The notes beneath the pieces were generated by a model, which worked only from the letters and a program-made list of their open reading frames with translations, was not told the DNA's origin and ran no database searches. The position numbers and the translations under genes were made by a program. From Acidobacteriaceae bacterium (GTDB lineage: Bacteria > Acidobacteriota > Terriglobia > Terriglobales > Acidobacteriaceae), in assembly GCA_009781125.1 (NCBI GenBank), contig WQYS01000052.1, forward strand, positions 1 to 11,188: DNA of 11,188 nt, read 5' to 3'. Each line of letters begins with the position of its first letter. Positions within the stretch are counted from its first letter, which is position 1. Positions 2,273 to 8,866 of the stretch are shown here, one piece after another.

Positions 2273-2476
2273 ATATACCAGCCCAGGGCGAAGCCCAGAG
2301 CGGCGATGCCCTTCAGGTGCGTTAAAGGGCCGAAGGGCCGCTCTATATGTTTGGCGATTGCGAGATTGTGGTTCGTTCAGGCGGTGGATAGGCCGGGCAT
2401 ACAGCCCTCTGTGCTTCGTTAGGCTTTTGACCCAGGGCTTCGCCCTGGGCTGGTATATTGGCGGGCCTTCGGCCCT
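2273..2476. repeat. Compound palindromic (REP/REPIN-like) repeat between actA and actB
   Basis: Two repeat types each occur as an inverted pair. Type A: the 24 bases at 2273-2296, starting ATATACCAGCCCAGGG, recur exactly in reverse complement at 2435-2458. The right copy is itself a hairpin, CCCAGGGC (2431-2438), loop TTC, GCCCTGGG (2442-2449). Type B: 2326-2341 and 2461-2476 are reverse complements at 15 of 16 positions, and the right copy folds as GGGCC, TTC, GGCCC (2463-2475). The order along the strand is A, B, A inverted, B inverted. Thus the gap of 277 bases in an otherwise tightly packed operon is explained by inserted repeats. The two right-hand hairpins end only 17 bases before the actB ATG and could influence transcript stability or translation. 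Neither is followed by a T-run, so neither is a standard terminator. Confidence 0.85.
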
Positions 2477-2482
2477 CAGATT

Positions 2483-2487
2483 GGTGA
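2483..2487 (+). promoter_or_regulatory. Ribosome binding site for actB
   Basis: GGTGA lies six bases before the ATG at 2494, directly after the repeat hairpins. It favours this start over the next in-frame ATG at 2590 (Met33), which has no comparable site. Confidence 0.55.
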
Positions 2488-2493
2488 CTGGCA

Positions 2494-5964: not shown

Positions 5965-7401
5965 ATGGCGACCACATCCATTAACGATCCGATGATCGAC
6001 CCTCGCACGGGGGAGTACGCGGTCATCGCGCCTGGACACAACTTCCGCTCGGTTACGCAGAAGATCGCCGGAATGGTGTTGACGTCGAAGACGCCGATGG
6101 GCTGGTTCTTCGGCGTGGTGGTTGCCGCGGGCGTGGTTCAAGGGCTGAACGTGGGGCTGACGTGGCTGTTTCTGAAGGGCGTCGGCATCTGGGGCGTCAC
6201 CATTCCGGGAGCGTGGGGATTTGCCATCATTAACTTCGTCTGGTGGATCGGCATCGGCCACGCCGGAACGCTGATCTCGGCGATTCTGCTGCTGTTCAAG
6301 CAGACGTGGCGCAACTCGATCAACCGCTTCGCCGAAGCGATGACGATCTTCGCCGTCGTCTGTGCTGGCATCTTTCCGCTGATTCACGTGGGCCGCCCGT
6401 GGCTTGCCTACTGGCTGTTTCCTTATCCCAATACGATGAACGTGTGGCCGCAGTTCCGTTCGCCGCTGGCGTGGGACGTATTCGCGGTCTCGACCTACGC
6501 GACCATCTCGGTGGTCTTCTGGTACATCGGCATGGTGCCGGACTTCGGCACCTTCCGCGATCGCGCACGGATGCCGCTGGCGAAATACACATACGGCCTG
6601 CTTGCTCTGGGATGGCGCGGATCGACACGGCACTGGGTGCGCTACGAGTCGGCCTGTCTGCTGCTGGCCGGGCTTTCGACGCCGCTGGTGCTCTCCGTGC
6701 ACACGGTCATCAGCTTCGACTTTGCGGTGTCGGCGCTGGCCGGATGGCACACGACCATTTTCCCGCCGTACTTCGTCGCTGGAGCCGTGTATTCAGGCTT
6801 CGCCATGGTGCTGACGCTGGCGATCCCGATCCGCAAGTTCTACCACATGGAAGACCTCATCACACTACGCCACTTGGACAACATGGGCAAGGTGATGCTG
6901 GCCACCGGAGGCATCGTCGCCTACGGCTATGCCATGGAGATCTTCATGAGCTGGTACTCGGCCAGCCACTGGGAGTTCTTCATGATGTGGAACCGCATGT
7001 TCGGCCCCATGGGCTGGTCGTACTGGATTCTGATCATGACCAACATCGCCATCCCGCTGACGACGCTGTGGTCGCGCAAGCTGCGAGTGAATGTGCTGTA
7101 CCTGTTCATCCTTTCGCTGATCGTGAACTCGGGGATGTGGTTCGAGCGCTTCGTGATTGTCGTGACTTCGCTTTATCGCGAGTACCTGCCTTCAAGCTGG
7201 GGAACCTACGAACCCACCCGGTGGGATTACATGATCTACGTCGGCTCGTGGGGATTGTTCACGCTTCTGTTCCTGTTGTTCGTGCGCTTCCTGCCCATGA
7301 TTCCGATGTCGGAGATTCGCACTATGCTGCCGCAGACCAAGCTGACAATGCGAAAGCCTCGCGGCAAAACCGCTGAGCGTACAAGCGAGGAGATGAGCTG
7401 A
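5965..7401 (+). CDS. actC: ActC, NrfD-like integral membrane quinol-binding subunit of alternative complex III
   Basis: The 478-residue protein is strongly hydrophobic, with about ten transmembrane helices between residues ~45 and 450. It carries the NrfD/PsrC-family landmarks of ACIII: WWIGIGHAGT (93-102), HVGRPWLAYW (141-150) and an aspartate after SPLAW (D171). In solved ACIII structures, a conserved histidine and aspartate in this region line the proposed quinol site; His141 and Asp171 are my candidates for them. The subunit should oxidise menaquinol and pass electrons to the nearest ActB cluster, and it may take part in proton movement. The start is firm: the ATG abuts the actB stop, and GGAG (5952-5955) lies nine bases upstream. 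The stop overlaps the actD start by one base (TGATG), so the two are translationally coupled. Nothing is truncated. Confidence 0.95.
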   Translation: MATTSINDPMIDPRTGEYAVIAPGHNFRSVTQKIAGMVLTSKTPMGWFFGVVVAAGVVQGLNVGLTWLFLKGVGIWGVTIPGAWGFAIINFVWWIGIGHAGTLISAILLLFKQTWRNSINRFAEAMTIFAVVCAGIFPLIHVGRPWLAYWLFPYPNTMNVWPQFRSPLAWDVFAVSTYATISVVFWYIGMVPDFGTFRDRARMPLAKYTYGLLALGWRGSTRHWVRYESACLLLAGLSTPLVLSVHTVISFDFAVSALAGWHTTIFPPYFVAGAVYSGFAMVLTLAIPIRKFYHMEDLITLRHLDNMGKVMLATGGIVAYGYAMEIFMSWYSASHWEFFMMWNRMFGPMGWSYWILIMTNIAIPLTTLWSRKLRVNVLYLFILSLIVNSGMWFERFVIVVTSLYREYLPSSWGTYEPTRWDYMIYVGSWGLFTLLFLLFVRFLPMIPMSEIRTMLPQTKLTMRKPRGKTAERTSEEMS

Positions 7402-7943
7402 TGCCGCCGAGAGAAGGTATCTACGGACTGCTGGCCGAGTTCAATACTCCGCGCGAACTGGTGCGCGCGACCGAAGCGGCTCGCGAGGCAGGCTATCGCA
7501 GGATGGAGTGCTACACGCCTTATCCCGTCGAAGAGACCGCCACCGCGCTGAACTGTCACAAGACCAGCGTGCCGCTGGTGTGCCTGATCGGAGGCATTCT
7601 GGGCCTGGTGACCGCCTACATGATGGAGACGTGGATCTCGGTGTGGGCGTTTCCGCTCAATATCGGTGGGCGTCCGCTGTTCTCGTGGGTGGCGTTCGTT
7701 ATTCCGGGGTACGAGTGGACGATTCTGTTCTCGGGTCTCGCGGCTGGGTTTGGAATGGTTGCGCTGAACGGGCTTCCGCAGCTCTATCACCCGGTCTTCA
7801 ACGCTCCCAACTTCCGCAACGGAGCGACCACGGACAAATTCTTCCTGTGCCTGGAGGCGACCGACCCGCGCTTCTCGATCATCGAGACACGCGCGTTTTT
7901 AGAAACGTTAGCACCGGTGTCCGTGGTGGAGGTCGAGCTGTGA
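7401..7943 (+). CDS. actD: ActD, DUF3341 membrane subunit of alternative complex III
   Basis: The 180-residue protein has an N-terminal soluble part beginning MPPREGIYGLLAEFNTP, then two transmembrane helices (about 56-77 and 106-125), then a short tail with LPQLYHPVFN (125-134). This is the typical two-helix DUF3341 form. ActD binds no cofactor and packs beside ActC as a structural subunit. GAGGAG (7387-7392) eight bases upstream and the one-base TGATG overlap with actC fix the start. The stop overlaps the actE ATG in the same TGATG manner. Confidence 0.93.
   Translation: MPPREGIYGLLAEFNTPRELVRATEAAREAGYRRMECYTPYPVEETATALNCHKTSVPLVCLIGGILGLVTAYMMETWISVWAFPLNIGGRPLFSWVAFVIPGYEWTILFSGLAAGFGMVALNGLPQLYHPVFNAPNFRNGATTDKFFLCLEATDPRFSIIETRAFLETLAPVSVVEVEL
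7928..7933 (+). promoter_or_regulatory. Ribosome binding site that fixes the actE start
   Basis: GGAGGT ends nine bases before the ATG at 7943, which overlaps the actD stop. It is the best ribosome site near the gene and supports starting at 7943, upstream of the repeat element. The in-frame ATG at 8105 after the repeat has only an AGG touching it, which is too close to act as a ribosome site. Confidence 0.7.
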
Positions 7944-8866
7944 TGAGAAAGATTATTCGATGGGCGATGTCGGGTAGAAAGTCCGGGTGCCCCATCCTGA
8001 GCGAAGCGAAGGGTGGGACGGTAAAAGTCCCAACCCGTAAATGTTTAGATCTGAAAATAAGGGCGCTTGAACGTTTTACTTTCCCACCCTTCGCTTCGCT
8101 CAGGATGGGGCACCCAAACATTTGTGTCTCGTTTGGAATTGTCTGTGTGTTGACCATACTGCTGACCGGCTGCCGCCAGGATATGCAGGACGAGCCAAAG
8201 TTCTTTCCGCAGCGCGGCACGACCTTCTTTCCCGATGGCCGCTCGGTGAGGCCGCAGGCGGCAAACACCGTGGCGCGGAATCAGCTTCATGAGGATTCGT
8301 ACTTCTACACCGGGCGCGTCTACGACAAGGATGGCAACAGTAAGGAAGGCGATGGAATGCCCTTTCCAGCAACGATGGACGTGCTGCGTCGCGGACAGGA
8401 GCGCTTCAACGTGTACTGCACGCCGTGCCACTCGCGCGTGGGCAATGGCGAAGGCATGATTGTGCAGCGCGGTTACGTGAAGGCGGGAAACTACCACACA
8501 GCGCGGCTGCGGAAGGCTCCGCTGGGCCACTTCTTTAACGTGATTTCAAAGGGCTATGGCGCTATGCCGGACTACTCCGCGCAGATCACTTCGGCGGATC
8601 GCTGGGCCATCGTTGCTTACATCCGCGCGTTGCAGTTGAGCCAGAACGCAACCGAGGCGGACGTGCCTGCCGGAGCGCATGTCGAGCCGCTCGGGAGTAT
8701 CGCCGAACGCGAAGGCTTGCCACCGTCGTTTGCCAAAGAGTGGAACCTGCCTGCAACAGCCGTCACCGGAACGCCGAACGGAGAGCCTATGGTGCTGCCT
8801 GATTCAGCTCTGCCCGATGCAGGCGGAATAAAGACAAAAGCGGTTCCAGCGGCTCCAAAGAAATAA
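7943..8866 (+). CDS. actE: ActE, monoheme cytochrome c lipoprotein subunit of alternative complex III, with a repeat inserted before its signal peptide
   Basis: From the ATG at 7943 the product is 307 residues. A single CxxCH (CTPCH, 159-163), a downstream GAMPDY with Met208 as likely sixth heme ligand, and the surrounding pattern identify a class I cytochrome c domain (about 145-232). In ACIII, ActE is a periplasmic, lipid-anchored monoheme subunit that hands electrons towards the oxidase. The lipoprotein signal is clear (hydrophobic 61-75, LTGC with C77), but it does not begin at the start codon: a 131-base palindromic repeat encodes residues ~15-58. The n-region is therefore abnormally long, with three additional cysteines or repeat-derived stretches. 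Either the long signal still works, or translation re-starts at Met55 (8105), which gives a normal-length lipoprotein signal but has a poor ribosome site. The open frame also extends upstream through actD, but that extension is out of the actD frame and not genuine. Confidence 0.92.
   Translation: MRKIIRWAMSGRKSGCPILSEAKGGTVKVPTRKCLDLKIRALERFTFPPFASLRMGHPNICVSFGIVCVLTILLTGCRQDMQDEPKFFPQRGTTFFPDGRSVRPQAANTVARNQLHEDSYFYTGRVYDKDGNSKEGDGMPFPATMDVLRRGQERFNVYCTPCHSRVGNGEGMIVQRGYVKAGNYHTARLRKAPLGHFFNVISKGYGAMPDYSAQITSADRWAIVAYIRALQLSQNATEADVPAGAHVEPLGSIAEREGLPPSFAKEWNLPATAVTGTPNGEPMVLPDSALPDAGGIKTKAVPAAPKK
7985..8115. repeat. Palindromic repeat with 34-base perfect inverted arms inserted in the 5' end of actE
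   Basis: The arm at 7985-8018 begins GGGTGCCCCATCCTGAGCG and is the exact reverse complement of 8082-8115. The arms flank a 63-base spacer, and weaker symmetry (GTAAAA) continues just inside them. The arms carry the same 20-base core as the second actB element (7993-8012, inverted at 8088-8107). Their outer 10 bases, GGGTGCCCCA, are identical to the ends of the first actB element. In RNA it could fold into a very strong stem beginning 42 bases after the actE start codon. It is open in the actE frame throughout (GCPILSEAKGG on the left, FASLRMGHP on the right). Confidence 0.92.

Follow-up and report, generated by a model that had tools for sequence, protein, structure and literature searches.

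How four palindromic elements came to lie in a single respiratory operon, three of them read through in frame inside its proteins, is the question raised by a stretch of 11,188 nucleotides (nt) from an Acidobacteriaceae bacterium (assembly GCA_009781125.1, contig WQYS01000052.1, positions 1 to 11,188), hereafter the window. Its operon encodes Alternative Complex III and consists of actA, actB, actC, actD, actE, actF, and one downstream gene. The original prediction, made from the sequence alone, was that this genome may host mobile elements resembling REPINs, i.e., pairs of inverted repetitive extragenic palindromes (REPs), which tolerate or favour in-frame insertion into genes and add new peptide segments to a respiratory complex. 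It is very probable that the elements are REPIN insertions of the kind moved by RAYT (REP-associated Y1/HUH) transposases and that purifying selection has maintained them in frame.

Four palindromic elements in an Alternative Complex III operon

Element 1 (2273..2476) is a composite palindrome with arms ATATACCAGCCCAGGGCGAAGCCC(TGGG) and is located in the gap of 277 nt (2217-2493) between actA (1368..2216, plus strand), its upstream neighbour, and actB. The latter gene (2494..5964, plus strand) encodes the iron-sulfur/molybdopterin-type subunit of 1156 amino acids and carries two elements. Element 2 (3555..3664, residues 354-391) is a head-to-head REP pair, GGGTGCCCCA...TGGGG, and element 3 (4343..4536, core 4351-4528, residues ~617-681) has CGTCATCCTGAGCGAAGCGAAGG arms that are 172 nt apart end to end. 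Element 4 (7985..8115), with arms GGGTGCCCCATCCTGAGCGAAGCGAAGGGTGGGA, falls within the N-terminal part of the signal peptide encoded by actE (7943..8866, plus strand), the gene of a predicted lipoprotein cytochrome subunit. Gene names were assigned by tblastn against 80 relatives, and ActB additionally via the solved complexes 8k9e, 6lod, 6f0k, and 6btm.

All four elements were recovered by an independent inverted-repeat search. Their arms were delimited to 2245-2296/2435-2486 for element 1 (52 nt, 79%), 3555-3571/3648-3664 for element 2 (17 nt, 100%; a further hairpin, 3560-3578/3588-3606, lies inside), 4343-4386/4493-4536 for element 3 (44 nt, 89%), and 7978-8026/8074-8122 for element 4 (49 nt, 90%). 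Elements 1, 3, and 4 are the three longest inverted repeats of the window, and element 2 is a nested pair. Complementary 12-mer pairs at most 260 nt apart number 57 in the window, compared with 0-2 in each of 20 dinucleotide shuffles. DNA folding exceeds that of shuffled sequences for element 2 (z -11.9) and element 4 (z -14.8); no excess was found for part of element 1 (2273-2400, z -0.5) or for a single arm of element 3 (z +0.5).

The elements are of more than one type. Elements 2 and 4 terminate in GGGTGCCCCA...TGGG hairpins, and both consist of two inverted hairpins with a conserved end tag, as is expected of a REPIN. In element 2 the stems comprise 19 and 14 pairs, the loops are AGTTTCATC and AGTTTTATC, and GGGTG precedes each hairpin. 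Element 4 has the same ends, with its stem built from the 20-mer CATCCTGAGCGAAGCGAAGG, which is also contained in element 3, there with CGT in front. Element 1 is of a different type again. Within their genes, elements 2, 3, and 4 are free of stop codons in the reading frame and conserved sequence continues on both sides, as first noticed. Since none of their lengths (110, 178, and 131 nt) is divisible by three, the elements alone would shift the frame, and its preservation also required that the junctions be altered.

Repeat families and RAYT genes in related genomes

The source of the window is an uncultured bacterium of the Edaphobacter/Granulicella group; the best-matching loci, a fragment (L076) and one of Edaphobacter aggregans (L027), average ~76% protein identity. 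In related genomes the 20-mer and the end-tag arms are dispersed repeats, which agrees with the mobile nature ascribed to them. The 20-mer shared by elements 3 and 4 was found in 7 of 16 handpicked relatives and in 132 of 300 genomes drawn from the family, with up to 153 copies. Across the phylum it was present in 4 of 119 genomes, one of which (G029) also belongs to the family draw. The end pattern GGGTGCCCCAN{18,40}GGGTGGG occurs in 19 of 21 related genomes in up to 122 copies, and reversed-pattern controls gave zero matches in all of these searches. The arm of element 1 is much rarer: as an exact 21-mer it was detected once in each of 2 among 200 genomes, and with up to three mismatches these same two genomes hold 15 (G173) and 6 (G050) copies, compared with none in 16 others. 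When whole elements were used as queries, the matches listed, from 24 of 24 genomes for element 3 and from 12 of 18 for element 4, comprised arms only and no cores. In one relative (G348:C4:79862-79973 and 121501-121615), same-strand copies of the 20-mer recur each 46-48 nt and resemble small tandem arrays.

In the act loci of the 80 relatives (1.15 Mb), the end pattern gave 17 REP-like matches, and the 20-mer gave none with one mismatch allowed. A separate observation was made in the act locus of a different host (L066), where three near-identical GGGTGCCCCAGGTCCCG...GGGACCTGGG REPs lie within 12 kb (at 2884, 11946, and 14674).

The hairpin of the tagged REPs is under constraint, and its stems covary. 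At six positions of the inner stem, 60 distinct REPs showed on average 4.72 pairs within elements, compared with 2.71 (maximum 3.28 in 500 trials) when arms were swapped between them. Y1 transposases were present in 10 of 10 genomes tested, and 30 of 56 matches to them were analysed as RAYT loci. The tag GGTGCCCCA reaches a density of 24.0 per 100 kb in these 30 loci, being present in 9 of them, compared with 3.2 in the 80 act loci. In four cases (L148, L145, L167, and L159) the Y1 gene has REPs on either side, and at L148, from the genome of E. lichenicola M8UP22, both the REP format and the loop type match element 2. Five of the seven Y1 proteins tested exceeded the cut-off of the NCBIfam model NF047646 (REP-associated tyrosine transposase); the two below it are truncated (L150) or of IS200 type (L141). 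The expectation of RAYT genes flanked by the same arms was thus borne out, in relatives, for the end sequence of elements 2 and 4; for the 20-mer no clear association was seen. The locus L141 was considered as a source of a RAYT for the 20-mer, as variants with two mismatches are found there, but the protein is an IS200-type transposase and this candidate was rejected.

Insertions in ActB and ActE and the position of repeats relative to genes

Alignment with relatives, suggested in the original prediction, revealed that the repeat segments are absent there. The low-occupancy stretches of the window ActB are those where elements 2 and 3 lie. With 41 residues, the linker around element 2 exceeds a median of 21 (75 of 80 loci) and one of 15 (41 of 41 further homologues); that around element 3 has 86 residues, compared with a median of 21 (78 of 80 loci and 41 of 41 further homologues), and in the solved complex 8k9e this region comprises 22 residues between aligned segments. 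In the joint alignment, the repeat peptides occur in no other sequence among 194 homologues for the first linker and 198 for the second. Element 3 brings a gain of ~65 codons or 195 nt, close to the 194-nt span of its inverted repeat, and the encoded peptide includes the stretch around EEFSEDLQEVQDTSLASIEVHR. As judged from these alignments, elements 2 and 3 appear as insertions lengthening variable ActB linkers and not as old parts of the protein.

In ActE the insertion would have a different fate. The actD stop overlaps the actE start (TGATG), as it does in L021, L024, L029, L032, and L038. The peptide of element 4 precedes the h-region and is upstream of the lipobox, whose cysteine, counted from the sequence, is residue 77 in the window and residue 38 in L032. 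Because of this position, signal peptidase II should cleave the peptide off during ActE maturation, so that in the mature complex ActB alone should bear a new peptide. The predicted addition of peptides to a respiratory complex therefore stands for ActB and is not upheld for mature ActE. An in-frame ATG (8105-8107) in the right arm of element 4 is a possible alternative actE start, for which no good ribosome-binding site was seen by eye. At the start of the window (1-1143, minus strand) there is a gene judged by eye to encode a multidrug-type MFS transporter, directed away from the act operon.

The notion that such elements tolerate or favour in-frame insertion has to be divided. A site in relatives was taken as in frame when both flanks of the repeat were coding in one open frame, according to a codon model trained on act loci, and control positions were placed 900 nt from repeats. 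Sampling took in 150 of 325 copies in three genomes (G180, G286, and G162) and used 160 loci (60 + 100), with some tag-type clusters included in the 20-mer group. In-frame sites amounted to 6 of 169 in the 20-mer loci (160 of 331 control positions); for the tag loci the corresponding figures were 3 of 29 and 24 of 52. In the close relatives G012 and G002, which hold L076 and L012, there were none among 20, compared with 17 of 40 control positions. The repeats are strongly depleted in genes of relatives, so the window is unusual; tolerance of in-frame insertion is supported, and a preference for it is not. Applied to the window, the codon model called positions 3550, 4300, 7900, and 8050 out of frame or non-coding, and 4450, within element 3, coding in frame; it also failed at the gene junctions 5950 and 7300 and was used for flanks alone. 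It misses element 4, with the left flank called non-coding, and an RsmG/GidB gene in L236, with a stop upstream of the gene, a case found by eye and left out of the 6 of 169. The in-frame counts are consequently lower bounds.

In-frame cases in relatives total ten. In lysyl-tRNA synthetase of L083 and L089 (1501-1520), the 20-mer is read in frame at the same linker between the OB-fold and catalytic domains. In RNase R the repeat lies between the RNB and S1 domains, and alanyl-tRNA synthetase, penicillin amidase, and a PMT_2 protein provide further cases. In L189 (1504-1523) and L283 (1501-1539 and 1870-1910), from two genomes, one and the same membrane-protein gene, for which Pfam gave no match, contains in-frame REPs that differ in type. 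These cases bear on the proposal that the ActB and ActE inserts are useful, their repeat-encoded peptides having been co-opted by the complex to serve as linkers or to bind partners. In its favour, two inserts persist in one subunit with frames intact, ten in-frame cases are known in relatives, two of them at one lysyl-tRNA synthetase linker, and other ActB proteins lengthen the same linkers by other means, reaching 38 residues (P0016) or, in the distant L036, 80 residues, in neither case with a repeat peptide. However, the inserts occupy the most length-variable linkers, repeats are generally depleted in genes, and the peptides, shared by no relative, come from whichever frame happens to be available in the repeat, with four different ones in use in the window. 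The AlphaFold2 model of ActB, built from 42 sequences, was unusable (mean pLDDT 40.7). Co-option is considered quite unlikely.

Origin of the insertions and related systems

RAYT-type insertion followed by purifying selection would account for the locus as follows. The four elements would be REPINs or REPIN-like composites, i.e., non-autonomous DNA hairpins, built from two or three REP types and moved in trans by RAYT transposases that recognise the end tag together with the hairpin. They may have entered the act operon of this lineage once it had diverged from the relatives known. Selection would have purged insertions that disrupted act genes, and the survivors would be those located between genes, in length-variable ActB linkers, or in the part of ActE cut off at lipoprotein maturation, with changes at the junctions keeping the reading frame open. 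As far as the relatives show, the arms do occur elsewhere and the segments are not shared by orthologues, and so neither of the observations that could have overturned the idea of mobile repeats was made.

Some results weigh against this explanation. Pairs of the 20-mer in relatives are mostly 72-74 nt long (26 of 30), compared with 172 nt in element 3. No empty site for the insertions was found at the nucleotide level among relatives, the nearest of which show ~75% protein identity. The 20-mer has no clear RAYT partner, since among 30 Y1 genes only 2 have an exact copy within ~1.3 kb; this agrees with PMC3733652, where CGTC REPs are said to be without a transposase. Finally, the gain at element 2 is only 20-26 codons despite its 110 nt, and because this is less than such an insertion would give, part of the ancestral ActB linker was probably lost at the site.

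The palindromes could also be regarded mainly as RNA or DNA structures, such as transcript-stabilising or supercoiling sites, that would tune act expression, their translation being incidental. The hairpins are strong, and element 1 lies between genes, like REPs described in PMC3733652. Such a role is nevertheless very improbable, since the act operons of relatives do without these elements, as seen from the 17 end-pattern matches and the absence of the 20-mer in the 80 loci. That the elements are miniature inverted-repeat transposable elements of a DDE transposase, or an artefact of metagenome assembly, is scarcely credible: the inverted repeats of elements 3 and 4 are long and enclose unique cores, and the contig is a single metagenome-type record of 15.4 kb, but tag-plus-hairpin REPs adjoin RAYT genes in relatives, and a misjoin rarely yields conserved in-frame sequence on either side three times. 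A broader proposal may be put forward, namely that Acidobacteriaceae possess a RAYT/REP lineage with the GGGTGCCCCA tag and freely covarying stems, whose REPINs in some hosts enter genes, or persist there, so frequently that they supply new linkers to core enzymes and a respiratory complex is being remodelled by peptides from repeats; this is an improbable extension.

The elements are not members of the GTAG REP superfamily. The canonical REP guide is GT[AG]G (PMC6006769), and no such foot was found in elements 2, 3, and 4: the foot of elements 2 and 4 is GGGTG-CCCCA, and that of the 20-mer family is [T/C]GTC. Both arms of element 3 start with CGTC; in relatives, where 196 contexts of the 20-mer were compared, the triplet before C is most often TGT, and is CGT in ~29. 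The literature was also searched by letters, with incomplete coverage: among the matches listed, no title tied the GGGTGCCCCA tag to REPs, and the 20-mer and the peptide HPERSEG were found in no paper.

The locus nevertheless shares with REP/REPIN and RAYT systems the inverted pairs of tagged hairpins and, in relatives, the many dispersed copies and a RAYT flanked by the same ends; it differs from them in the tag, GGGTGCCCCA instead of GT[AG]G (PMC6006769), in stems that vary within one genome, and in the intragenic position of three of four elements. The acidobacterial TIRYT Y1 transposases, with long terminal inverted repeats and the common end motif GGGGWSAS (PMC3733652), come from the same phylum and likewise have inverted flanking ends able to form repeat families, whereas GGGGCACC mismatches that motif at the fifth base. 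Rickettsia palindromic elements are also translated in frame within proteins (PMC3733652), unlike which the present elements are RAYT-linked and mostly extragenic in relatives.

A close parallel is provided by intragenic GTAG and CGTC REPs, reported in frame inside known proteins of Opitutus, Thauera, Xanthomonas, and others, including tRNA synthetases, with double insertions per open reading frame, inserts of 20-82 residues, and a suggested location in linkers (PMC3733652). In-frame repeats in proteins, tRNA synthetases among them, and double insertions are common to both, while the host family, the end tag, the respiratory complex, and the two REP types in one subunit distinguish the present case from those described there. 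The window is accordingly a striking and well-supported example of a phenomenon already published, found in a new place. The known range of in-frame REP insertion now includes Acidobacteriaceae and a respiratory complex, and a useful by-product is a RAYT-linked REP type of this family with the GGGTGCCCCA tag and covarying stems. Such insertions can serve as natural experiments on the enzyme linkers that accommodate foreign peptide, and peptides such as HPERSEG and ILSEAK in predicted proteins signal insertions, not domains.

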